DNA of 22,240 nucleotides from a virus: positions 1 to 22,240 of IMG/VR virus record IMGVR_UViG_3300028027_000259; one strand, written 5' to 3'. The position numbers were made by a program, and so were the translations under genes. Positions within the stretch are counted from its first letter, which is position 1; every line of letters starts with the position of its first letter. Positions 5,147 through 20,095 of this stretch are shown here, piece after piece. The notes below the pieces were generated by a model. That model was not told the DNA's origin. It saw nothing but the letters and a program-made list of their open reading frames with translations, and searched no databases.

Positions 5147-7738
5147 ATGTCACAAGCAGGCTATACACCCATTCAACTTTACTACAGCACCACTGCGTCG
5201 GCTGTACCTGTTAACACCAACCTTGCAAACGGTGAGTTGGCTATCAACATCACCGATGGCAAGCTGTACTACAAAGACAACGGCGGAACAGTTCAATTGT
5301 TGGCATCAAACGCTACATCTGCACCAGTTCTTTCGTTCTCTGCTGGTACAACAGGATTTACCCCAAGCACTGCAACATCGGGTGCTGTGACTCTTGCAGG
5401 TACGCTTAATGTGGCAAATGGCGGTACTGGACAGACATCGTATACAAATGGTCAACTGTTAATTGGCAATACTACTGGCAATACTTTAACAAAAGCAACA
5501 TTGACTGCGGGTAGTGGCGTAACCATTACCAATGGCACTGGTTCAATTACCATCAATGCAACGGGTCTTGGTGGCGATGTAGTTGGCCCAGCCTCTGCAA
5601 CGGCTAACGGTATTGCTCTGTTTAACAGCACAACAGGCAAGCTGATTAAAGACTCAGCCGCATCTGATGGTTTAATTTATGGTCTAACAGTAGGCCGTGG
5701 TGCAGGTGCTGTGGCTACCAATACTGCGGTGGGTGCTAGTGCTTTGGCGGCTAATACCACTGGCTCTCAACATACTGTTGTTGGCGCAAGTGCTGGTGCA
5801 AGCATTACTACCAATGCTTATTTATCAGCATTAGGTTATCAAGCGGCTTATTACATGACTGACAGTAATGATGCTTTTGGTCGTCAGGCTTTATATGGTC
5901 AATCTGGTGCAACGGGTTATTACAATGTAGGCGTTGGATTTCGCTCTGGGTACTCAATGACTTCAGGAAATTTGAATACCGCCATTGGAAGTCAAGCCCT
6001 TTACTCCAACACCACAGCATCAGAAAGCACCGCTGTAGGTTATCAGGCTCTCTATACAACTACCACATCAGCTAGAAACACTGCTGTTGGTTATCGGGCT
6101 GGCTACCTAACTTCTTCTGGTCATGTCACGGCAGTTGGTTCTTATGCTTTGTCGGCAAACACAACTGGAAACTCCAATGTGGCTGTTGGTGGAAACGATG
6201 AATCTACTGCTGGCGCATTGCAATCTAATACAACTGGCTCTAACAACACCGCAATGGGTGTAGGCGCATTAAAAGATAACACCACAGCCTCTAACAACAC
6301 TGCTGTAGGTTATCAGGCAGGATATACAAACACCACGGGAACACAAAATTCGGCAATCGGTAGCGGGGCTTTATACACAAATAGTACAGGAAATGCAAAC
6401 ACAGCACTTGGCTATGGTGCGTTGAATCTTAGCACCACGGCCTCTAACAACACTGCGGTTGGCAGTTATTCTCTCAGGGCTAATACTACTGGAACTAACA
6501 ATATAGCGGTTGGTGCGGCAGATTTTGGGACAGATTACGGAGCTTTGGGATACAACACCACTGGCAGTCAAAATACTGCTATTGGTAAACAAGCATTATT
6601 AAACAACACCACAGCATCTAACAACACAGCAGTAGGTTATCAGGCGGGATATACAAACGTAATTGGAACATACAACACATTTTTGGGACAAGTTGCTGGA
6701 TATGCTAATACTTCTGATTCCAATACTTTAATTGGTAGAGCCGCTGGTTATGGTGTTACTTCTGGCGGTGGCAATACGCACGTTGGTGCTTCTGCTGGCT
6801 CTGGTGCTTCTGGTACAGGAAATTACAACTCATCCGTTGGTTTTTTATCTGCATCAAGTTTAACTTCAGGCTCAAACAACGTAGCTTTTGGATACCAATC
6901 ACTTGCCGCCAACACCACAGCATCTAACAACACTGCTGTAGGTTATCAGGCGGGATATGCTTTAACCTCCAATGCCGATGGTGGGTTGGTTGCTGTTGGC
7001 AACAGAGTGTTATCTACCGCAACAAATAACAGAAATACTGCTGTTGGTAATGAGGCTATGCGATATAACACTACAGGTAGTGTAAATACCGCAGTTGGAA
7101 ATCTTGCCGCTCAAAACAATACAACTGGCTCTTTCAATACCTGCATTGGAGATTATGCTGGTATATTTTTATCAACTGGTAGTTACAACATTTGTATTGG
7201 CGCACTTGCTGGATACAACCAAAACAGCGGGCCAGTAACTACGGGAAGCAACAACATTCTTATTGGCTATGATAGTGGACTTGACGCAAGTAGTAATAGC
7301 AATTGTATAAATATCAATACGGCTGGTAGTAAGGGTAAAGGCGCAACTACAGGATTTATCAATCCTAATGGTGGTGGCGTTTATCAAGGTAACAATTCAT
7401 CGTCATGGTCAACCACTTCTGACCAGCGTCTGAAGAAAAGTATTGTTGACAATACTGTCGGTCTGGATGCAATCACTTCTATCCGTGTACGCAACTTTGA
7501 GTACCGCCTACCAGAAGAAATCACCGAACTTGGCGCATCCAACGCTATCAAAAAGACTGGCGTTCAACTTGGCGTAATTGCCCAAGAGTTGCAGGCCGTA
7601 CTTCCAGACTGCGTAAAGCAGGAATCAACAGGTGTCTTATCTGTTGACCCAGATAACTTGACTTGGTACATGGTTAACGCCATTAAAGAGTTAAAAGCCG
7701 AGGTAGACAGCCTCAAATCTCAACTTAAAGGAGCCTAA
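5147..7738 (+). CDS. Tail fibre with YadA-like head repeats and S74 self-cleaving chaperone
   Basis: GAGGAAA precedes the ATG. The 863-residue product has an N-terminal NGELAINITDGKLYYKD element (residues about 27-43), common in phage fibres. Next is a FSAGTTGFTP/SGAVTLAG module shared with the preceding gene. Residues about 180-720 are repeats of the type NNTAVGYQAGY and TAIGSQALYSNTTA, which resemble the left-handed beta-roll of trimeric autotransporter adhesin heads. Residues 758-863 are an intramolecular chaperone of peptidase family S74: SDQRLK places Ser758 and Lys763 at the spacing of the known Ser/Lys dyad, followed by VRNFEYR, GVIAQELQAVLPD, LSVDPDNLTWYMVNAIKEL and a C-terminal coiled coil. 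In that family the chaperone trimerises the fibre and then cuts itself off before the Ser. This is the most secure receptor-binding fibre in the window. Confidence 0.93.
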   Translation: MSQAGYTPIQLYYSTTASAVPVNTNLANGELAINITDGKLYYKDNGGTVQLLASNATSAPVLSFSAGTTGFTPSTATSGAVTLAGTLNVANGGTGQTSYTNGQLLIGNTTGNTLTKATLTAGSGVTITNGTGSITINATGLGGDVVGPASATANGIALFNSTTGKLIKDSAASDGLIYGLTVGRGAGAVATNTAVGASALAANTTGSQHTVVGASAGASITTNAYLSALGYQAAYYMTDSNDAFGRQALYGQSGATGYYNVGVGFRSGYSMTSGNLNTAIGSQALYSNTTASESTAVGYQALYTTTTSARNTAVGYRAGYLTSSGHVTAVGSYALSANTTGNSNVAVGGNDESTAGALQSNTTGSNNTAMGVGALKDNTTASNNTAVGYQAGYTNTTGTQNSAIGSGALYTNSTGNANTALGYGALNLSTTASNNTAVGSYSLRANTTGTNNIAVGAADFGTDYGALGYNTTGSQNTAIGKQALLNNTTASNNTAVGYQAGYTNVIGTYNTFLGQVAGYANTSDSNTLIGRAAGYGVTSGGGNTHVGASAGSGASGTGNYNSSVGFLSASSLTSGSNNVAFGYQSLAANTTASNNTAVGYQAGYALTSNADGGLVAVGNRVLSTATNNRNTAVGNEAMRYNTTGSVNTAVGNLAAQNNTTGSFNTCIGDYAGIFLSTGSYNICIGALAGYNQNSGPVTTGSNNILIGYDSGLDASSNSNCININTAGSKGKGATTGFINPNGGGVYQGNNSSSWSTTSDQRLKKSIVDNTVGLDAITSIRVRNFEYRLPEEITELGASNAIKKTGVQLGVIAQELQAVLPDCVKQESTGVLSVDPDNLTWYMVNAIKELKAEVDSLKSQLKGA
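6278..6960 (+). repeat. Three near-identical 50-base direct repeats inside the fibre gene
   Basis: Copies at 6278-6327, 6605-6654 and 6911-6960 each begin AACACCACAGC and end in a GGTTATCAGGC(A/G)GGATAT block; pairs differ at only a few positions (three for copies 1/3 and 2/3). All are in the same frame and encode NTTASNNTAVGYQAGY. Spacing is 109 and 102 codons. A more diverged relative begins near 6008. Confidence 0.85.
7418..7735 (+). other. S74 intramolecular chaperone domain and predicted self-cleavage point
   Basis: Codon 758 (TCT, 7418-7420) is the Ser of SDQRLK and codon 763 is the matching Lys. Cleavage between Thr757 and Ser758 would release a 106-residue chaperone trimer. The assignment rests on motif spacing and the downstream GVIAQELQ and LSVDPDNLTWYMVNAIKEL segments typical of the family. 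Confidence 0.85.
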
Positions 7739-10073: not shown

Positions 10074-10106
10074 ATGTCTCAACAAATCCACGAGGTGAAC
10101 GCATGA
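10074..10106 (+). CDS. Possible ten-codon leader ORF coupled to the adaptor gene
   Basis: ATG 10074 opens a ten-codon frame (MSQQIHEVNA) whose TGA overlaps the adaptor start as ATGA. AAAGGCAG lies upstream at a usable distance. The ORF holds the adaptor's own ribosome-binding site (GAGGTG). Too short to claim as a gene; it could be a translational coupler or a remnant of a longer gene. Confidence 0.3.
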   Translation: MSQQIHEVNA

Positions 10107-10738
10107 CGACCGCAAGTGTTATGACCTATGACAGTTTGGTCGAAAACATCCAGTCCTATTTAGAGCGGACGGATACGGCGACCCTCGAAAAGATTCCTCT
10201 GTTCATCATGTTGGCAGAGCAAACAATTGCCAGCCAGATCAAATTCCTTGGTAACTTAACCGTTCAGGAATCTACAATGGTTTCCAACCAAGCGGTAATT
10301 GACAAGCCTGCTCGTTGGCATAAGACGGTTTCGTTCAACATTACAGTGGCTGGTCAACGACAGCCTGTGCTGTTACGAAAGTATGAGTACCTTCGTGAGT
10401 ATTGGCCTAACGCGACCGATACTGGTATTCCCGCTTATTTTGCGGACTACGACTATACCCATTGGTTGGTGGCTCCTACGCCTGCTTCAGCCTACACGTT
10501 TGAAGTTTTGTACTACGAGCGCATTCAACCTTTGGATTCTTCTAATCAGACGAATTGGTTCACAATTTACGCGCCCCAAGCGTTGCTGTATGGGTCTTTG
10601 TTGCAGGCGATGCCGTTCCTCAAGAATGATGAGCGCATGGCTATGTGGCAACAAAACTATGACCTCATCATGCGCACCTTGATGGCTGAGGATAAATTGA
10701 GACTGGCTGATCGTCAAGCCGTAGCGGTGGATTCATAA
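10103..10738 (+). CDS. Head-to-tail adaptor protein (SU10 adaptor / P22 gp4-like)
   Basis: GAGGTG precedes the ATG. The 211-residue product begins with YDSLVENIQSYLER and a helical stretch LFIMLAEQTIASQIKFLG typical of small phage adaptor proteins that bind the portal ring. A beta-rich middle follows: ARWHKTVSFNIT, RKYEYLREYWPN, PAYFADYDYTHWLVAPTP, YTFEVLYYERIQPL. The C-terminal helices (FTIYAPQALLYGSLLQAMPFL and ERMAMWQQNYDLIMRTLM) complete the family pattern. The length matches single-domain adaptors. It precedes a fibre-like gene and the gp10-like nozzle gene, the order expected for a podovirus neck. The gene at 1312 is a larger protein of similar type, so the window encodes two adaptor-like proteins. 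Confidence 0.87.
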   Translation: MTTASVMTYDSLVENIQSYLERTDTATLEKIPLFIMLAEQTIASQIKFLGNLTVQESTMVSNQAVIDKPARWHKTVSFNITVAGQRQPVLLRKYEYLREYWPNATDTGIPAYFADYDYTHWLVAPTPASAYTFEVLYYERIQPLDSSNQTNWFTIYAPQALLYGSLLQAMPFLKNDERMAMWQQNYDLIMRTLMAEDKLRLADRQAVAVDS

Positions 10739-12030
10739 TGAGTTACAACAGCCCTTTTACTGGTAACGTCATCCAACCAACTGACGTATCGTATCGCCGC
10801 ATCACGCTGACGACTGACTTGCAGTTGGAATGGCCTATCAACGGCACGACAACTGACGACGCCGCCGCTCGAATCATGGAGGTGTCTACAGCCTCCAGCG
10901 CAAACGAGTTGTGGATGCCCCCAGCTAATCAAGCGTCAGTAGGTCAAGATGCATTGATCCGAAATGTCGGCGCTGTAAGTTTGCTGGTTAAAGACTACAC
11001 TGGTTTGAATACCATTGTGACTGTAGCCGCTGGCGAGGCTCAGTACATCTACATTACCGCAAATCCAACCACAGCAGGTACTTGGGGCATCATTGCCTAC
11101 GGTATTGGTTCTTCTGGTGCAGATGCCGCTACGCTGGCTGGATACGGTCTTTTGGCTATTGGTCAAACACTGAACCAAAGCCAACCTGTTACCACGTTTT
11201 CATCTAACTACACAGCACTTACTACTGATCGTTCTAACACTTATGTGTGGACTGGTGGTGCTGGAACATTGACCCTAACAGCCGCCGCAACATTGGGCGA
11301 CAACTGGTTTATGTTCTTGCGTAATAGCGGAACTGGTGCTTTGACGGTTGCAGGTTCTGGTGGAAATACCATCAACGGTTCTGCAACAATCATTCTTCAA
11401 CCAAGCGACTCTTGCATTATTGTTTGCAGTGGTTCTACGTTCTACACGGTAGGTTTGGGTAAGTCTACGCAATTTGCGTTTACTCAATTGACCAAAGCAG
11501 TAGTAACTGGTAACTACACATTGACTTCAGCCGAAGCCTCCAATGTGATCCAAAAGTACACTGGAACGCTGACTGGAAACGTAAACATCATTGTTCCTCC
11601 AACAGTGCAGGTGTACTACATTCAGAATGCTACGGTCGGTGGGGTGGGTAACTATACGATTACCATCACAACCAATACTGGAGGCTCTACTGCAACGATT
11701 GCGTCAAATCAACAGGCAACATTGATTTGCGATTCTACAAACTTAGTTAATGCCAACACGGTATTGGCTGGTTCATCTTCAATTGGTTTGGTCAACGGAA
11801 CTGTTGGTGCTCCTGCTTTGTATTTTTCTTCAGAGGCAAGCACTGGTGTGTATCGCGCCGCTTCTGGTGAGTTCAACACTTCAATTCTTGGTGTGTTGAG
11901 ATCAACATTGTCAGCAACAGGTTTGGCAATTGTTGGAAATGTCTCTGGTGTTGCTGGGGTGTTTTCTGGTGCTGTATCTGGTACGACTGGAACATTTACT
12001 ACTGGTATTACTGGCGGAACATTTACATGA
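10738..12030 (+). CDS. Beta-rich fibre-like virion protein between adaptor and nozzle genes
   Basis: TAATG overlaps the preceding stop. The 430-residue product starts with MSYNSPFTGNVIQPTDVSYR and then has three related beta units (about residues 60-125, 155-240 and 250-345), each with a VY/NYT strand, a glycine-rich turn and a closing line such as IIVCSGSTFYTV or LICDSTNLVNAN. The last part, PALYFSSEASTGVYRAA and GLAIVGNVSG, is the pattern that precedes chaperone domains in many fibres, but here the protein ends at TTGITGGTFT without one. A gene of this type located between gp4-like and gp10-like genes is something I associate with aquatic podovirus-like contigs. A tail-surface or fibre-base protein is likely. 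Confidence 0.8.
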   Translation: MSYNSPFTGNVIQPTDVSYRRITLTTDLQLEWPINGTTTDDAAARIMEVSTASSANELWMPPANQASVGQDALIRNVGAVSLLVKDYTGLNTIVTVAAGEAQYIYITANPTTAGTWGIIAYGIGSSGADAATLAGYGLLAIGQTLNQSQPVTTFSSNYTALTTDRSNTYVWTGGAGTLTLTAAATLGDNWFMFLRNSGTGALTVAGSGGNTINGSATIILQPSDSCIIVCSGSTFYTVGLGKSTQFAFTQLTKAVVTGNYTLTSAEASNVIQKYTGTLTGNVNIIVPPTVQVYYIQNATVGGVGNYTITITTNTGGSTATIASNQQATLICDSTNLVNANTVLAGSSSIGLVNGTVGAPALYFSSEASTGVYRAASGEFNTSILGVLRSTLSATGLAIVGNVSGVAGVFSGAVSGTTGTFTTGITGGTFT

Positions 12031-14117
12031 CCAAAAAAGTTTTTTCGATTGATACGCAACCCGGTGTCCAGCGGGATGGTACATATTTCGACAAAAACTT
12101 TTACTCCGACGGTCGTTGGGTAAGGTTTCAACGTGGTCGTCCTCGCAAGATTGGCGGTTATCGCGCCATTACAAATGACGCTTTTGGTTACTCTCGCGGT
12201 ATCTACGTCAACTCTACTGACGGTATCAATCAAGTATTTAACGGCTATAACAATGGTTTGGAAGTCGTCAACATTGACAACAATGGTATTGGTGCTGGTG
12301 TTAGTGAATTCACCTTTACTGGTTTGGTTTTAACACTCAACACGCTTGTTGGTGGAACCTTGTACACCAACGGCACATATACCAACGTAACCCTCACAGG
12401 AGGCTCTGGATCAGGGGCAAAAGCTACAATTGTTGTGTCTGGTGGCTCTGTGACCACTGTAACAATTACGACGGCTGGAAACGGTTACGTTGTTGGTAAC
12501 ACATTAAGCGCAACAGCCGCAAGCATTGGTGGAACTGGTAGTGGGTTTTCAATTAAGGTTGCAACAATTGATGACGGATTCACAGCCAGTAATCTAAACC
12601 TTTGGCAATTTGATTCGACCTTTGATTCTCAAGGTTCTGGAAACCAGTTGTTGCTTGCGCACCCCGGTCTGAACTTAGCGGAAATTGATCAAACCGTAAA
12701 CACGCCAGTTTTAGCAGGGAACATTTCTGGCACCTCCATGTCTCCCCTGACTGATACTACTGGAACATCGCCAACAGGTGACATTATTGAAGTATCTGGT
12801 GGCGTGGTTGTTTTGCACCCATATGTTTTTGTGTATGGAGACAACGGTCTGATTAAAAATTCAGTGGCTGGTAATCCATATGATTGGAACGGTGCAGATG
12901 CAAACGAGGTCAATGTAGCCTCTACAAAGATTGTCAAGGGTTTACCTGTTCGTGGTGGTTCTAATGCCCCATCTGGTTTGTTTTGGGCGCTTGATTCATT
13001 GATTCGCGTTTCTTACACTCCAACAACAATTAGCACTGGCGGAACAACATCGACGTTTTATTGGCGCTATGACGTGATCTCTAGCCAATCTTCTATCTTG
13101 TCTTCTCAGTGCGTCATTGAGTACGACGGTATCTATTATTGGATTGGTGTTGATAGATTCTTGCTCTACAACGGTGTAGTCAAGGAAATTCCAAACTCCA
13201 TGAACCAAAACTACTTCTTTGACAACCTAAATTATGACCAACGTCAAAAAGTTTGGGCTACAAAGGTTCCTCGTTTTGGTGAAGTTTGGTGGTTCTTCCC
13301 TTCTGGTGACTCAGAAGAATGTAACGATTGCGTGATTTACAACATCCGCGAAAACTGTTGGTATGACGGCGGTCAGGCATTGGGTTCTCGTCGCACGGCT
13401 GGTTACTTTTCTCAAGTGTTCAAGTACCCTATCAATGCTGGCGTAGATTTGACAGTGCAAGAAGAAGTTTTTGCTACAACAATTGACACAACAAATACAA
13501 GTGCAAATATTGAAGTGCCAGTAAACAATTTGATTGCACTAAATCAACTGGTGATTGCAACAGGTATTCCAGACAACAGCATAGTGACTGCAATTGCTCC
13601 AAGTGCAACGGCTGGATACTTTACTGTCACACTTAGCAATGTTGCCACGGCAACTGGTACTGCTGTTAGTGCAACTTTTAATACGACGGCAAATCGAATA
13701 ACTTTGTGGCAACACGAGATTGGTACTGATGAGGTAAATGATCAAACTGTAAATGCCATTGAAAGTTATTTTGAAACATCTGACTTGGGTTGGGTGGGGG
13801 GCGGCCCGTCCCAGTCACCACAACCACTGCAAGGCGGTGCGGGTGAAAACTTCTGGTTGCACTTAGAGCGTGTTGAACCTGACTTTGTTCAATCAGAGCA
13901 GATGTCGTTGCAAATCATTGGTAGACCGTTTGCGCAAAAAGCAGATGTAATTTCTGATCCATATTATTTTGATCCAGACACTGGAAAAATTGATATGCGT
14001 GAACAGCGTCGAGAGATACGATTGAGATTCACAAGCAACGTGCAAGGCGGAAACTACCAAATGGGTCGAGTTCTGCTCAGTGCCAACTTGGGCGACGTTC
14101 GTCCATACGGGGGTTAA
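12027..14117 (+). CDS. Tail nozzle / stabilisation protein (P22 gp10-like) with two inserted beta modules
   Basis: An ATGA overlap joins it to the preceding gene. The 696-residue product begins TQPGVQRDGTYFDKNFYSDG and WVRFQRGRPRKIGGYR, then has propeller-like repeats (GLFWALDSLIRVSYTP, IYYWIGVDRFLLYNGVVKEI, VWWFFPSG, CVIYNIRENCWYDG) and ends with QRREIRLRFTSN and YQMGRVLLSANLGD. This layout matches the P22 gp10 / T7 gp12 group that forms the tail nozzle below the adaptor. Two stretches look inserted: residues about 105-180 (TNGTYTNVTLTGGSGSGA, GNGYVVGNTL) and about 475-555 (VNNLIALNQLVIATGIPD, VTLSNVATATGTAVSA). Both resemble mobile beta modules of phage surface proteins. No enzyme motif is visible. 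Confidence 0.82.
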   Translation: MTKKVFSIDTQPGVQRDGTYFDKNFYSDGRWVRFQRGRPRKIGGYRAITNDAFGYSRGIYVNSTDGINQVFNGYNNGLEVVNIDNNGIGAGVSEFTFTGLVLTLNTLVGGTLYTNGTYTNVTLTGGSGSGAKATIVVSGGSVTTVTITTAGNGYVVGNTLSATAASIGGTGSGFSIKVATIDDGFTASNLNLWQFDSTFDSQGSGNQLLLAHPGLNLAEIDQTVNTPVLAGNISGTSMSPLTDTTGTSPTGDIIEVSGGVVVLHPYVFVYGDNGLIKNSVAGNPYDWNGADANEVNVASTKIVKGLPVRGGSNAPSGLFWALDSLIRVSYTPTTISTGGTTSTFYWRYDVISSQSSILSSQCVIEYDGIYYWIGVDRFLLYNGVVKEIPNSMNQNYFFDNLNYDQRQKVWATKVPRFGEVWWFFPSGDSEECNDCVIYNIRENCWYDGGQALGSRRTAGYFSQVFKYPINAGVDLTVQEEVFATTIDTTNTSANIEVPVNNLIALNQLVIATGIPDNSIVTAIAPSATAGYFTVTLSNVATATGTAVSATFNTTANRITLWQHEIGTDEVNDQTVNAIESYFETSDLGWVGGGPSQSPQPLQGGAGENFWLHLERVEPDFVQSEQMSLQIIGRPFAQKADVISDPYYFDPDTGKIDMREQRREIRLRFTSNVQGGNYQMGRVLLSANLGDVRPYGG

Positions 14118-14118
14118 C

Positions 14119-14376
14119 ATGGCGCTGGCTGTTGTTTACGACCCTCGATTTCAAGATTGGAATTCTTGGGCTTCTCTTATGGTGGAAGCGTATGCGGGTC
14201 AACAGTTGTCTATTCCTTCTGGTGAAGAACATTGGAAAGAGTGGGCGGCAAGTCTAAAAGCTATTGATGTGTTTACGAACGAGGGCATCCCCGGCCCGTA
14301 CATCTACGACAACTGGCAAGACTGGGCGGCGGCTCTAGTCGGCGCTGTTAACCAGAAGACTGAACAAAATGCGTAA
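14119..14376 (+). CDS. Small Trp-rich tail protein (85 residues)
   Basis: I chose ATG 14119, two bases after the nozzle stop; an upstream in-frame ATG at 14080 lies within the nozzle gene. The product shows three related elements with the pattern 'W..WA..L': FQDWNSWASLMV, EEHWKEWAASLK and YDNWQDWAAALV. Small proteins with this pattern commonly follow gp10-like genes in podovirus-like phages, in my recollection. The threefold internal repeat suggests three similar helices that pack against tail proteins. There is no membrane segment or signal peptide. It overlaps the next gene by eight bases, which makes coupled translation likely. Confidence 0.8.
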   Translation: MALAVVYDPRFQDWNSWASLMVEAYAGQQLSIPSGEEHWKEWAASLKAIDVFTNEGIPGPYIYDNWQDWAAALVGAVNQKTEQNA

Positions 14377-16858
14377 CGATAACGACGACGACTACTACAC
14401 GGCTTATGAGGATTCCGCTCCTGCCGTTTCTGATGCCGACATTAGAGCCTTTGTTGAAGCCAACATTGGTAACCCAGCACTGATTGCTGAGACAGCGGCG
14501 CAGTATGGTGTTTCTGTTGACGACTTGTCTCGCGCTACTGGCTATGATTCCAATGCTGTTGTCAGTTATTTTCAGCAAGCTGATGTTGCTCCCCCTGCTT
14601 ATGAACCTCCACCTACTGGTGGTTTAAGTGCTGTTTCTGTTGCTGAGGAACCTACTCCACCACCACCTCCAGATGAACGTGTTTACGAGCCTCCAGATGA
14701 GCGTGTTTACGAACCTCCACGTCCTGATGAGCCACCTCCTAGACCAGAGCCTCCTCCTCCGCCAGAGCCGCCAGTTTATGAGCCACCAGAACCTCCACCA
14801 ACAAGGATTGTAGAAACAAACGCGCCTGTTGATTTAGGCGATGGTACGTTTAGAACGCGCGGCGGCACCATCATCGATAAAGATGGTCGACCCGTTACTA
14901 AGACTGTTGACACAACGTCTACTGCTGTTGTTAATACTCCAAAAACATACACTCAAACTGAAGTCAATGACGCTCTAACAAATCTGCTTGCTAATGATCC
15001 TAATGCTAAAAGATCAGATGTAGCCGCGCTTGCCTCCACATTAGGCATAACCGCAGATCAAGTTAATGCCGCATACAGTAGTTTGCCAGCCGCCAAAACA
15101 ACTGTTGCTGATACAACTACAGGTACAGCAACTGGTACAACTAAAACAACTGACACAACTACTGCCGTTGCACTGCCCACGCTTACTGACTATCAAGGTA
15201 ATCAGTTTGACGGTGCTCAGTTATTAACGCTGGCTCAACAGATTGCACAAAACGCAGGCTCCATGACTGGTGGTGCATTTCAAACTAAAGGTGAGAACAT
15301 TGGTTTTGCCGCAACCGAAGCAAACAATTTATTAGGCAGGACAGCCACAGCATCAGAACAAGTTCTGCTTGATATGGCGCGTCAATTTATTCAATCTGGC
15401 GTAACTGATTTAAGTCAGTTAAAAACCCAAGACATTACAAGTAGCGGTGTTAGTGTTCAACTTGACCCTGAGACAAACCAATACTACGCACTTATTCCAA
15501 GTGCTGATGGCGAAACATCTACTCGCAAAGAATTAACTCCTGATCAAGTTGCCAAGATTAAAACTGAGGAAATTTATTTAGGTGGTGATAACGGCACACA
15601 AATCCAAAGAACAATTGATGACTTAGTCACGGGCAAAGGTTTGTTTGCCAATGGCAAGCTGTTGACAGCGCAAGATGCTGTAGACAATCCTATTGCATAC
15701 ACCATTGGTTCTACCTACACGGGTGGTGGTGGTACTAGTTATGACTTAAAGTTTGATCCTAAGACTGGCAAGTCGGTAGTTTCTGCAAATGGTTTTACAA
15801 CCAGCGATGCAGATACGATCATGCCAATCATTATGATTGCGTCCAACTTCTTGTTGCCGGGCGTTGGCTCCATGCTTACCAGCACTCTTGTTGAAGCTGG
15901 TATGAGTGAGATAGTGTCTCAGGTTGTTTCTAAGTCCATCATCAACGGCGTGACAAGCGGCATCATGGCTGAAGCCTCTGGTGGTGATTTTGGCGACGGA
16001 TTCTTAAAGGGTTCTATTACTGGTGCAATCTCTGCTGGGGTCGCTCCAATGATCTCTACGGCTTTGCCTTCAGACTTATCGCCTGCCGTATCAAGCGCAC
16101 TTACTAAAGCAGGCACAGCGGCTATAACGGCTTTGGCGACTGGTACAGATGTCGGTACTGCTATTGGCACTCAGTTGCTTAATTCTGCCGTTGGAACAGG
16201 TCTTTCTTCTGTTACTGGCGAGATGGGACTTTCCACAGCGGATGCAAAATTGTTAAATTCTGTTTTGACTCCAGTTGTAACTCAATTAGTCACTAACGGT
16301 AATGTCAACGATGCAACCCTAATGAATGCCGTGTTGTTGGCTGGTTCAACCATTCTTGCCAATACGGGTTCTAACACTGTAAACAATGTATCTACATTGA
16401 CTACTGGCACTGATGCTGACAAAACGGTTGGTGGTTTGAACTTGCTTGCAAGTACAACAGGCAATGAAACATTAACTGATTTGGCATCAACAGTTGGAAC
16501 TGGTTTGGGTGCGGTATCTACAGCAACTGGATTGTTGAACAAAGCAACGTCTTTAACCAAGCCCGTTACCAAAGTTAACAAAACAAGAGCCAATTTGACT
16601 GGTGCTTTAAGAACAACTAAGCCAACAACAAGAACAGCGGCTGTAAAACCTGCGGCACTTGGTGCATTGAATACAGCCAAGAAAACCATATCGGCACAAC
16701 AGATGTCTCAGATGAAGGCATCTAAACCGCCAGCACGAGTTAATGTGGCAAACTTGACAGCAATTAAAAAACCACCACAAAGGGTGGATGTTAAAACCTT
16801 AATACCTGTAAAAAAGGCACAGTTGCCAGCAGGTCTGAATACGAAGAAAATGGGGTAA
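14369..16858 (+). CDS. Large ejection-type virion protein with proline-rich linker and hydrophobic core
   Basis: The ATG overlaps the preceding gene by eight bases. The 829-residue product starts with an Asp-rich leader (NDNDDDYY) and a helical element SDADIRAFVEANIGNP then ETAAQYGVSVDDLSRATGYD (residues 21-60). A related element, TQTEVNDALTNLLAND then VAALASTLGITADQVNAAY, recurs at 195-236. Between them lies a proline-rich linker (residues about 75-145). Residues about 483-530 (ADTIMPIIMIASNFLLPGVG, SEIVSQVVSKSIINGVTSG) and 545-665 are long hydrophobic, Gly/Ala-rich stretches able to enter a membrane. The last 100 residues are Lys/Thr/Pro-rich and basic. Such a build fits an internal protein ejected into the host envelope with the DNA. 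No named family is recognised. Confidence 0.75.
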   Translation: MRNDNDDDYYTAYEDSAPAVSDADIRAFVEANIGNPALIAETAAQYGVSVDDLSRATGYDSNAVVSYFQQADVAPPAYEPPPTGGLSAVSVAEEPTPPPPPDERVYEPPDERVYEPPRPDEPPPRPEPPPPPEPPVYEPPEPPPTRIVETNAPVDLGDGTFRTRGGTIIDKDGRPVTKTVDTTSTAVVNTPKTYTQTEVNDALTNLLANDPNAKRSDVAALASTLGITADQVNAAYSSLPAAKTTVADTTTGTATGTTKTTDTTTAVALPTLTDYQGNQFDGAQLLTLAQQIAQNAGSMTGGAFQTKGENIGFAATEANNLLGRTATASEQVLLDMARQFIQSGVTDLSQLKTQDITSSGVSVQLDPETNQYYALIPSADGETSTRKELTPDQVAKIKTEEIYLGGDNGTQIQRTIDDLVTGKGLFANGKLLTAQDAVDNPIAYTIGSTYTGGGGTSYDLKFDPKTGKSVVSANGFTTSDADTIMPIIMIASNFLLPGVGSMLTSTLVEAGMSEIVSQVVSKSIINGVTSGIMAEASGGDFGDGFLKGSITGAISAGVAPMISTALPSDLSPAVSSALTKAGTAAITALATGTDVGTAIGTQLLNSAVGTGLSSVTGEMGLSTADAKLLNSVLTPVVTQLVTNGNVNDATLMNAVLLAGSTILANTGSNTVNNVSTLTTGTDADKTVGGLNLLASTTGNETLTDLASTVGTGLGAVSTATGLLNKATSLTKPVTKVNKTRANLTGALRTTKPTTRTAAVKPAALGALNTAKKTISAQQMSQMKASKPPARVNVANLTAIKKPPQRVDVKTLIPVKKAQLPAGLNTKKMG
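14669..14718 (+). repeat. DERVYEPP tandem repeat in proline-rich linker
   Basis: Two 24-base units encode DERVYEPP twice with two mismatches between copies. The surrounding linker adds AYEPP, VYEPP and long Pro/Glu runs over residues about 75-145. This is likely an extended, flexible spacer. Confidence 0.75.
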
Positions 16859-16861
16859 ATT

Positions 16862-19800
16862 ATGGCAAGAACAGTACGCAACCCTTTGGAATTAAGAACG
16901 CCCGTCCGAACAATTAGTTCGGTGATGCGTAACGCCCCCAACAAAAGATTCAGACCTACTGAGTTAGATTTTGGTGATGGTCGCGGTGACCGAGGCGGTC
17001 GCGGTGGCATGGGTGTTCGCGGCGGTCAAGATGATTTTGGCAATTTAACCTCTGTTTCTCGCGCTCCCCGTGAAACAATTGCTAGTCGCGCACCCGTATC
17101 TGAAGGCGTAGCGACTCCTATTTCCCGTGGAACAACTACTGGTGCTCCAGCGGCGCGTGTACAAACAGGTACAACAAGAGCGCCTCAAGCTAGTCCCAAA
17201 CCTGCCATTACTTCTGCAATTAAAAAACCTGCTGTAGCGGCAAAGACTACTACGCCTGCGGCAAAACCTCCTGTTGCGGCTAAAACAACAACCAAGACTC
17301 CAGTTGCCGCCAAGACTACTACGACAAAGGCACCTGTTGCGGCTAAAACTACAGCAACAAAACCAGTAACAACAGCAAAAAAACCTGCCGTTACTCCAAC
17401 TAAGCCAGCAACAAAGCCATCAAGCAGTTTAACAAGTACGTTGAAAAAAGCGGCTGTTGCCGCAGGAACTGCCGCGCTAGTTAACAAGGCAGTTAACAAA
17501 TTAACGACGCCTAAAACACCCGTTGTAAAGCCGCCAGTGATTCCCGGCACACCTAAGCCACCAATTGGCAAACAACCAGTTATCCCCGGAACGCCTAAGC
17601 CTCCAATTACATCTATTGTTAAGCCAGCAGGCATTCCGACAAAGGGTGGCGTTGGGATAAAGCCCGGCGGGGGCGCTCCTACTTTGAAGCCACCAGCAGG
17701 CACTAAACCTCCTGTTGTTCCTAAAGGCTCTACAGCAGGCGCAACTGGCGCATTGACTGAAGATCAAATTCAAGCCGAGTTAGATCGCGTTAGAACAGAG
17801 ACAGAGGGCAATGTTGTTCCTGAAGGCGCTGTAACAAATGAAGATGGTTCTTACTCAGTTACCGAAAATGGAATGATTAACACCTATGACAAGGATGGAA
17901 ACATCATTGGCATGGAGGCGGTTACAGATACCACAACCGACACTACAACTGACACAACTACTGGCGTAGATACCACCACTGGTTTGACCAGAAGCCTTAC
18001 TGGTGGTGCTGGAGACACAACGGTTACTGGTGAAGACACCTCTGGAATGACAGACCTTGGCGAAGGTTACTTTGCTGATGCAAGTGGAAACATCTACGGC
18101 GCTGATGGAAACTTGATGTACACCGTTGGTGCAGACGGAGAATACGTTGATGCCTCTGCTTCAGGTGCTACTACAACTGCTGATGAAACAACTTGGACAG
18201 ACCCAGAAACAGGTTTAACTTGGAATATGGGTGAAGATGGTAGTTGGTCACAAGAGGGCGTTAGCACTGAAGACGTAACCTCTTGGACTGACCCTGAGAC
18301 AGGATTAACTTGGAATCAGGGTGCAGACGGTGAGTGGTCTCAAGAGGGGTTTGATGCTTCTGCTGAAGATACAACTTCTTGGACTGATCCAGAAACAGGT
18401 CTTACTTGGAATCAAGGTGCTGATGGTGAATGGTCTCAAGAAGGTTTTGACGCATCTGGCGAAGATTACACATTAGGTGATGACGGATCAGGTGAAGACA
18501 CATACGTTGCTGACGATGAATACGTCGATGACGGTACAAATTACGAAGAAGATGCCAAGGGTGGTTCAATTCGTCGTAAGCGTCATTTTGACGATGGTGG
18601 CTATACAGGTCTTGGTTACGGCGAAGATTTTGGTTACTCTGACACTGGCGAAGAAGTTCAAGATTTTCAGAACGTCGGCTACAACTATGGTGAGTTTGAC
18701 GACCCAACAATGTTTGCTGGTGATACATCACCATATGCTGGAAGCATGGCAAGAAATACTTATTTGAGTTCAGCGTCATTGCCATCCCCAGAGGGTTGGC
18801 CTGCTGGTTTCGTTGACAACGGTGACGGCACGGCTACCTATGTTGATGATGACGGTAGCACAATGACAATTGATGCCGACAGCAACATTGTTTATGTAAC
18901 TGATACAGAGGGAAATTCCTTTGACTCTGAGGGCAATACTGTTGACCCAGCAAATATCTCATCTACTTCAAGCACAGGCGGATGGAATGACAATGGCGAT
19001 GGAACATATAGTCGTTGGGATGGTGATCAATATGTAACCGTTGACGGCGAAACCAATACTGAATTGCTTCGCACCGACTCTGAAGGAAACCCAGTTACTG
19101 CTCCAGTAGGATCAATTACCTCTTCTGGTGGTGGAAACAAGCCAAGTTTTGCAACAGCGGCGGCTGATGCGGCGGTTAATCAAAACCAGCCAGACCAAAC
19201 TGGCATTTTGGATTCATTGTTAAATGCCGTTCGCGATAACCCCGGTCTGGCTGGCGGAGCCGTAGGTGCTCTGATTGCATCTTTGATGGATCAAGCCGAA
19301 AGCAGTGAGTCTGCTAGTCCAAGCCAACCCGTTGACATCTCTGAGTTAACTTCGTTTGACCCACGCACTACAGACTTTGGTGCAGGCATGGTGGGTGGTC
19401 GCACAGGTACTGGTAGCCCAATTGTTTCTTATTCTGACTATGCAGAAGGCTACGGCGATGAGACTCCTGATGACCGTCTGTATTCAGACCTTGGTATCTC
19501 TGGCTGGCTCAGAGAGCCTGACATGAACAATTACAGGGATGAAGAGGGCAACCTATTAGATCAGTCTGGAAACCTTGTTGATGAATATGGCTACTTGCTA
19601 GAAGACGGTGACTATGAGGAAGCAGTTCCTGAAGAGGAAACTGCTGTCGAGGACGCATACGAAGCCGAAGAAGAACCAGCAATGGCGGGTGGCGGTACAA
19701 CGCACTACACGTTTGGTCGCGTAATGAACCCTGCTGACAATCTTGGTTTGGGTCAAGGTATGAAAAAGGGTGGTCTGTCACAGGCTCACACCGTTCACAG

Positions 19801-20095
19801 CCACCACACCAATCCAGTGGTGAACAACCGTGTGGACTTCCGCAAAGGTTCTGCCGTTAACGGTGCTGGCGACGGACAGTCTGACGACATTCCAGCGTGG
19901 TTAGCTGACGGTGAGTACGTTATGGATGCCGAATTGGTTTCCATGTTAGGTAACGGCTCAAACAAAGCTGGCGCAAAAGTTCTTGATAAATTCCGAGAAA
20001 ACATTCGTGCTCACAAAAGAAGCGCACCTCTCGGTAAAATACCACCAAAGGCTAAATCACCTTTGAACTATCTGAAGGAGTCTATGAATGGCTGA
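16862..20095 (+). CDS. Very large low-complexity ejection-type virion protein
   Basis: The start follows three bases after the previous stop with a weak ribosome-binding site. The 1077-residue product is divided by charge. Residues 1-290 are basic and Ala/Lys/Thr/Pro-rich, with an Arg/Gly patch (GRGDRGGRGGMGVRGG) and VAAKTT repeats like histone H1 tails. Residues about 300-640 are acidic, with DGN-type turns and three WTDPETGLTW units. Residues about 890-945 are very acidic (GNLLDQSGN, EEETAVEDAYEAEEE). The C-terminus is basic and carries GAGDGQSDDIPAWLADGEYV, LGNGSNKAGAKVLDKF and IRAHKRSAPL (from residue 1001), a closing signature I associate with phage virion proteins of this class. Gly-triplet/basic tags occur at three places. 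A DNA-associated or ejected internal protein is the best reading. Confidence 0.75.
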   Translation: MARTVRNPLELRTPVRTISSVMRNAPNKRFRPTELDFGDGRGDRGGRGGMGVRGGQDDFGNLTSVSRAPRETIASRAPVSEGVATPISRGTTTGAPAARVQTGTTRAPQASPKPAITSAIKKPAVAAKTTTPAAKPPVAAKTTTKTPVAAKTTTTKAPVAAKTTATKPVTTAKKPAVTPTKPATKPSSSLTSTLKKAAVAAGTAALVNKAVNKLTTPKTPVVKPPVIPGTPKPPIGKQPVIPGTPKPPITSIVKPAGIPTKGGVGIKPGGGAPTLKPPAGTKPPVVPKGSTAGATGALTEDQIQAELDRVRTETEGNVVPEGAVTNEDGSYSVTENGMINTYDKDGNIIGMEAVTDTTTDTTTDTTTGVDTTTGLTRSLTGGAGDTTVTGEDTSGMTDLGEGYFADASGNIYGADGNLMYTVGADGEYVDASASGATTTADETTWTDPETGLTWNMGEDGSWSQEGVSTEDVTSWTDPETGLTWNQGADGEWSQEGFDASAEDTTSWTDPETGLTWNQGADGEWSQEGFDASGEDYTLGDDGSGEDTYVADDEYVDDGTNYEEDAKGGSIRRKRHFDDGGYTGLGYGEDFGYSDTGEEVQDFQNVGYNYGEFDDPTMFAGDTSPYAGSMARNTYLSSASLPSPEGWPAGFVDNGDGTATYVDDDGSTMTIDADSNIVYVTDTEGNSFDSEGNTVDPANISSTSSTGGWNDNGDGTYSRWDGDQYVTVDGETNTELLRTDSEGNPVTAPVGSITSSGGGNKPSFATAAADAAVNQNQPDQTGILDSLLNAVRDNPGLAGGAVGALIASLMDQAESSESASPSQPVDISELTSFDPRTTDFGAGMVGGRTGTGSPIVSYSDYAEGYGDETPDDRLYSDLGISGWLREPDMNNYRDEEGNLLDQSGNLVDEYGYLLEDGDYEEAVPEEETAVEDAYEAEEEPAMAGGGTTHYTFGRVMNPADNLGLGQGMKKGGLSQAHTVHSHHTNPVVNNRVDFRKGSAVNGAGDGQSDDIPAWLADGEYVMDAELVSMLGNGSNKAGAKVLDKFRENIRAHKRSAPLGKIPPKAKSPLNYLKESMNG
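17222..17386 (+). repeat. Histone H1-like (P)VAAKTT repeats
   Basis: Residues about 121-175 repeat PVAAKTT(T)K with variations (PAVAAKTT, PPVAAKTTTK, TPVAAKTTTT, APVAAKTTAT). Codons differ between copies (GTTGCGGCTAAA versus GTTGCCGCCAAG), so the repetition is in the protein rather than recent DNA copying. An IPGTPKPPI pair follows at residues 227-249. Confidence 0.75.
17924..17983 (+). repeat. Short Thr/Asp run (TDTTT)
   Basis: Residues 355-374 are built from TDTTT and TTTG units, a low-complexity linker between the first acidic segment and the GEGYFADASGN segment of the same protein. Confidence 0.6.
18188..18466 (+). repeat. Three ~30-residue WTDPETGLTW repeats
   Basis: Trp445, Trp475 and Trp507 begin units reading WTDPETGLTWN(M/Q)G then DG.WSQEG, spaced 30 and 32 codons. 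Copies 2 and 3 differ in one of thirty residues over SWTD...AED but in thirteen further codons that are synonymous. Confidence 0.85.

Follow-up and report, generated by a model that had tools for sequence, protein, structure and literature searches.

The three tandem WTDPETGLTW units of a 1077-aa phage protein form an old, moderately constrained array of small β-meander beads, variable in copy number, in a putative phage ejection protein. The protein is encoded in the window, the whole 22,240-nucleotide stretch of viral DNA that was analysed (IMG/VR record IMGVR_UViG_3300028027_000259, positions 1 to 22,240), and the virus is an uncultured short-tailed phage similar to SU10 and Caulobacter phages. 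The explanation that we favor sees a putative ejection (pilot) protein whose acidic middle carries the units as old paralogous aromatic beads, which may serve as repeated contact sites; taken as a whole, contact role included, it has about an even chance of being correct. Since the synonymous sites are saturated and the skeleton of the unit is retained, the copies are older than the split of the virus from its nearest relatives and are under purifying selection.

Gene layout and genomic setting

The features of the gene and of its neighbor are as follows.

14585-14800, + strand: proline-rich acidic arm with PPAY/PPVY and repeated YEPP in the adjoining upstream 829-aa protein (ORF 14369-16858), a candidate partner of the units
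16862-20095, + strand: repeat-protein gene, 1077 aa; the N-terminus is basic and disordered, the middle acidic and bead-bearing, the C-terminus conserved; putative ejection (pilot) protein
16862-17755, + strand: basic N-terminal region rich in K, T, A and P, predicted to be disordered, net charge about +38
17852-17920, + strand: predicted three-stranded bead (SYSVTENGMINTYDKDGNIIGME region), strands within residues 331-353, pLDDT about 80-86
18068-18151, + strand: Y-type bead (YFADASGNIYGADGNLMYTVGADGEYVD) directly before the W-type units; tandem Y-type hairpins are found instead in L008-L010 and L278
18188-18259, + strand: W-type unit 1 (TTWTDPETGLTWNMGEDGSWSQEG), predicted strands 444-446, 453-456 and 462-464
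18278-18349, + strand: W-type unit 2 (TSWTDPETGLTWNQGADGEWSQEG), predicted strands 474-476, 483-486 and 492-494
18374-18445, + strand: W-type unit 3, with the same protein core as unit 2 and randomised synonymous sites, predicted strands 506-508, 515-518 and 524-526
18830-18901, + strand: predicted three-stranded bead (TATYVDDDGSTMTIDADSNIVYVTD region), strands within residues 657-680, pLDDT about 85
19004-19078, + strand: predicted three-stranded bead, residues 715-739, from the full-length model
19862-20092, + strand: conserved C-terminal segment (GDGQSDDIPAWLADGEYV...), common to Caulobacter phages and tape-measure PHROGs

The N-terminus (16862-17755, the first 298 residues) is histone-H1-like and strongly basic, and it is followed by a strongly acidic middle (17760-19700). 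The named PHROG matches of the protein were tape-measure families, all to the C-terminal segment with a best E of about 2e-5, and the C-terminal 85 residues were 53.5% identical to gp065c of Caulobacter phage GB2A, named 'tail length tape measure protein'. Gp065c resembles our protein in these residues and in gene position but has no basic N-terminus, no beads and no W-type units. This C-terminal resemblance leaves room for a role in the tail, which the protein may have. No profile of a known ejection-protein family matched the 1077-aa protein, and its likeliest function, as judged from gene position, is that of an ejection (pilot) protein.

Profile matches placed an SU10-type adaptor at 10103-10738 and a stabilization/virion structural protein at 12027-14117, after which the cassette continues with proteins of 829, 1077, 332, 580 and 605 aa, the last two completed from the overlapping contig IMGVR_UViG_3300028025_000958. 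The 605-aa protein gave a glucosaminidase match above the cut-off and a weaker SLT match. The gene thus lies where an ejection-protein gene is looked for: its neighbors in the late cassette include tail adaptor/stabilization genes and a gene for a peptidoglycan hydrolase. The same cassette order was found in Caulobacter phage GB2A and in MW202545, where the homologue is named tape measure or hypothetical protein. Terminase, portal and capsid are also encoded on the overlapping contig; the P22_portal model found no match in the related records. The window and this contig showed 0 differences in 11,379 bases, and the lack of polymorphism therefore precluded a population test. Within a separate adaptor-like protein at 1312-2385, an F5/8 type C (discoidin-like) domain seems to be inserted; the two matches stayed below the curated cut-offs.

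The cassette resembles those of the ejection proteins of SU10 (gp20-24, PMC9509320) and P22 (gp7/gp16/gp20) in its order after the adaptor and stabilization/nozzle-type genes, in its several adjoining large low-complexity proteins and in its peptidoglycan hydrolase. SU10 has five ejection proteins, one of them with transglycosylase activity (PMC9509320). The 1077-aa protein differs from these ejection proteins in that no common sequence family was detectable, in the bead-on-string acidic middle and in the role, which is putative here.

The repeat and the age of its copies

WTDPETGLTW occurs three times in ORF 16862-20095, with codons starting at 18194, 18284 and 18380. Our recount reproduced the figures of the initial annotation: copies 2 and 3 agreed at 29 of 30 residues (SWTDPETGLTWNQGADGEWSQEGFDAS[A/G]ED), with 13 codons differing synonymously. 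Over 33 codons, the two copies had 31 residues in common and differed at 21 nucleotides, with 15 codons changed synonymously. The repeat can still be detected at the DNA level (96-bp period, 2.9 copies, 78% matches), and the longest exact DNA match between units was only 11-12 nt.

Codon identity was counted only at positions with a shared residue that has more than one codon. By this count, 13 of 28 codons were identical between copies 2 and 3, against 10.9-11.6 expected from random draws on the codon usage of this virus; since the matches were near the random expectation, the synonymous sites of the two copies are saturated. The same held in every homologous array found, the pooled within-array pairs showing 46% identical codons vs 41% expected (15 pairs from seven viruses). 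In the window, L006 and L007, codon identity was 57% between units at the same array place in different viruses, 44% between units at different places and 45% within one virus, and the difference between same and different places was significant (exact permutation P = 0.028). The linker after unit 1 also corresponds, with VSTEDVTSW in the window against ISTEDVNSW in L006. Because units and linkers at the same place agree between viruses, the copies predate the split of these viruses. The earlier claim that the units are old and not a recent slip was therefore borne out by the saturation in every array together with the closer codons at corresponding places, and codon identity at the random level ruled out a recent tandem duplication or slippage. 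The age that saturation yields for the copies is only a minimum.

Alternatively, selection could disfavor recombination between repeats and in this way make the codons of neighboring copies diverge. In L006 and L007, units 2 and 3 had fewer common codons than expected (z = -1.1 and -1.9), but adjacent pairs taken together matched slightly more often than random (44% vs 41%), so that selected codon divergence between neighbors was unsupported and we consider it highly improbable.

The initial annotation had also taken the pattern as the mark of a segment with a real function. This did not prove specific: codon identity was also random in the KTTTKTPVAAK and VKPPVIPGTPKPP repeats (KPPVIPG) of the same gene, and likewise in a repeat of ORF 2763. 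Other repeats of the gene being equally saturated, saturation alone does not mark a uniquely functional segment, and a saturation peculiar to the W-type segment was ruled out. The tail-fibre repeats (NTTASNNTAVGYQAGYTNTT) at 5147-7738, in contrast, had 73% identical codons vs 36% expected and, unlike the W-type units, look recently copied or homogenised.

Selection and conservation across relatives

When 21 random changes were placed on copy 2 in 20,000 trials, a mean of 13.8 and a minimum of 7 amino-acid changes resulted, against the 2 observed, and this neutral simulation therefore rejected the absence of selection. Saturated synonymous sites combined with few amino-acid differences are what an anciently duplicated repeat under purifying selection should present, and both were found here. 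Relatives of the protein were found in viral contigs, and 25 units from 14 viruses gave the consensus T-[TS]-[WY]-T-D-P-[ED]-T-G-x-T-[WY]-N-x-G-x-D-G-x-W. Among these 25 units, P6, T8, G18 and W20 were invariant and D5, G9, D17 and E23 nearly so, while positions 10, 14, 16, 19, 21 and 22 varied widely. The skeleton under protein-level selection is W/Y-x-D-P-E/D-T-G-x-x-W/Y-N-x-G-x-D-G-x-W.

Copy number ranged from three (window, L006, L007, L265) through two (L004, L005, L281) and one (L011, L013, L266, L268, L273, L283, L284) to zero (L278, L279, L282, L286, L008-L010, L012), and L014 ends inside its unit. In L007, around 7413, the homologue is interrupted just before the units by a frame change, either real or an assembly error. 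Two further phage proteins with charged/proline repeats, encoded by minus-strand ORFs in L067 and L121, carry a single TWTDP[DE]TG.VYVIN hairpin that is perhaps convergent. When DNA was scanned broadly for the patterns WTDPxTG and YTDPxTG, most of what came back were unrelated proteins with the short motif.

The pN/pS ratio between orthologous units was 0.216, about eight times the 0.026 measured over the final 90 codons. The middle of the gene, its most divergent part, had the highest pS and pN, and both values were lower towards either end; between the window and L004, pS was 0.14 in residues 395-434 and 0.62-0.79 in residues 471-535. From this profile, we infer that the array region was reshuffled by recombination between diverged lineages. 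The dN/dS comparison proposed with the initial annotation thus placed the units under purifying selection, less constrained than the C-terminus. Its claim of strong selection on the protein applies to the skeleton of the unit and does not extend to singling out the segment, given the free positions, the 0-3 copies and the higher pN/pS. Residues varying freely in homologues, which were to speak against the claim, were found at part of the unit, namely the six variable positions.

Predicted structure of the units

AlphaFold2, given a 161-aa segment and an input of 14 sequences, predicted for each unit a three-stranded β-meander (SWT, LTWN, EWS) with DPETG and GADG turns and a local pLDDT of about 80. 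The arrangement between units was not fixed, and the pTM of 0.26 indicates low global confidence. The triple unit of the initial annotation is accordingly modeled as three separate folds. The full-length model was disordered (mean pLDDT 46.8) save for several meander beads and a few helices, and each unit is predicted to fold locally within a chain of several similar beads with disordered linkers between them. Foldseek gave no significant match for the beads, the best being a choline-binding module in the PDB (E 0.02) and a viral match at E 0.008; the unit profile found no match among PDB sequences, and Pfam and PHROG returned nothing for the unit.

Relatives that have no W-type units carry a different type of tandem hairpin (FFTDDDGNLYDSNGNIYQYADGT) at this place (L009:6151-6600, L008:6391-6717, L278:1975-2289). 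Across the relatives, the bead types appear as if interchangeable, like cassettes.

Likeness of the units within an array

Residue agreement was 83% within arrays vs 73% between arrays, a difference reached in 0 of 20,000 label shuffles (uncorrected for relatedness), and synonymous sites showed no such excess (46% within vs 49% between). With array position respected, the agreement was 83.3% vs 78.7% in three close relatives (P = 0.027; P = 0.001 with L265 added). The residue after DP was either all E or all D within each of the 7 multi-unit arrays. This likeness is a modest oddity for which phylogeny may account in part.

Repeat copies within proteins have been reported to show dN/dS below 1 universally, and copies inside one protein usually diverge faster in protein than orthologous copies (Nat Commun 2016, PMC5120217). 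The W-type units share the purifying selection between copies; they differ in that copies within the protein are at least as alike in protein as orthologous ones (83% vs 80%) with synonymous sites more diverged. Coordinated protein selection might keep the units of one array alike, with the DNA not homogenised, since all would have to fit the same partner, for example the proline-rich arm. The residue after DP, uniform within each multi-unit array amid randomised codons, would be an example. If so, evolution would be concerted at the level of the protein and would involve no gene conversion, and the bead module of phage ejection proteins would be one not described before; we hold this to be unlikely.

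Possible functions of the beads

Under the favored explanation, the protein would be packaged along with the DNA and ejected with it, and small independent beads would be able to unfold for the narrow tail channel and then refold. Birth-and-death, together with recombination between diverged lineages, would shape the array, and the bead fold would be what selection acts on. With exposed Trp and Tyr, the beads could repeatedly make weak contact with a partner that belongs to the ejection complex or to the cell envelope. For the repeated binding site suggested in the initial annotation, the predicted aromatic-rich β-meander beads are a plausible candidate.

The beads could alternatively be a mere flexible acidic spacer for which any small soluble fold suffices, the identity of copies 2 and 3 being chance within a slowly changing motif. 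The 0-3 copies, the other hairpin types in L008-L010 and L278, the many free positions and the high pN around the units are consistent with such a spacer, but the skeleton of W/Y, D, P, T, G, N, G, D, G and W persists despite synonymous saturation, and the units of one virus are alike in protein beyond the likeness between relatives; we judge the spacer reading unlikely.

Two more specific contacts were weighed. In one, WW-like units would bind the proline-rich arm of the upstream protein and so hold the ejection complex together. The predicted fold, an antiparallel meander of three strands that has a DPxTG turn and spaced Trp, recalls the WW domain (PF00397), and the units were present in all nine viruses with a homologue of the proline-rich neighbor and absent in 8 of the 13 without it (one-sided Fisher P = 0.004, uncorrected for relatedness). 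L266 has both the neighbor and a unit despite N- and C-termini of another type. However, the Pfam WW model matched no unit at E <= 10 in six records, the virus is one of bacteria, and the W-to-W distance of WW domains is longer than in the units, which counts against a WW-like fold. Units also occur without the neighbor homologue in five viruses (L013, L273, L281, L283, L284), and four viruses with both neighbor and units (L005, L014, L265, L268) are without PPxY, which ruled out an obligate pairing with this motif. This contact is thus quite improbable in our view. We assign a similarly low likelihood to the other, in which the beads would be cell-wall or glycan-binding hairpins, like choline-binding repeats (PF01473), that touch peptidoglycan during ejection. 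The units are hairpins of about 20 residues rich in aromatics and Gly-Asp, a glucosaminidase protein is encoded in the same cassette, and the best, non-significant Foldseek PDB matches include the choline-binding CbpL, LytC and LytB (E from 0.02, prob 0.1-0.5). Against it, Pfam Choline_bind_1 gave no match to the units at E <= 10, the structural matches were not significant, and the beads are separate with variable linkers, a continuous solenoid not being predicted. At the profile level, the units were placed in neither the WW nor the choline-binding family.

Biological meaning

Synonymous saturation makes it possible to date the tandem repeats of this phage virion-type protein, and the array offers a clean example of such dating. 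Its units define a short β-meander bead that is unclassified and has a simple consensus. Unless the within-array effect is confirmed, the array is nothing out of the ordinary: its repeats are old and under purifying selection, and the phage protein that carries them is a mosaic. The causes of repeat uniformity, selection and gene conversion, are usually hard to separate; if the likeness of units in protein but not in DNA within arrays holds in a larger, tree-corrected sample, the two would become separable here.
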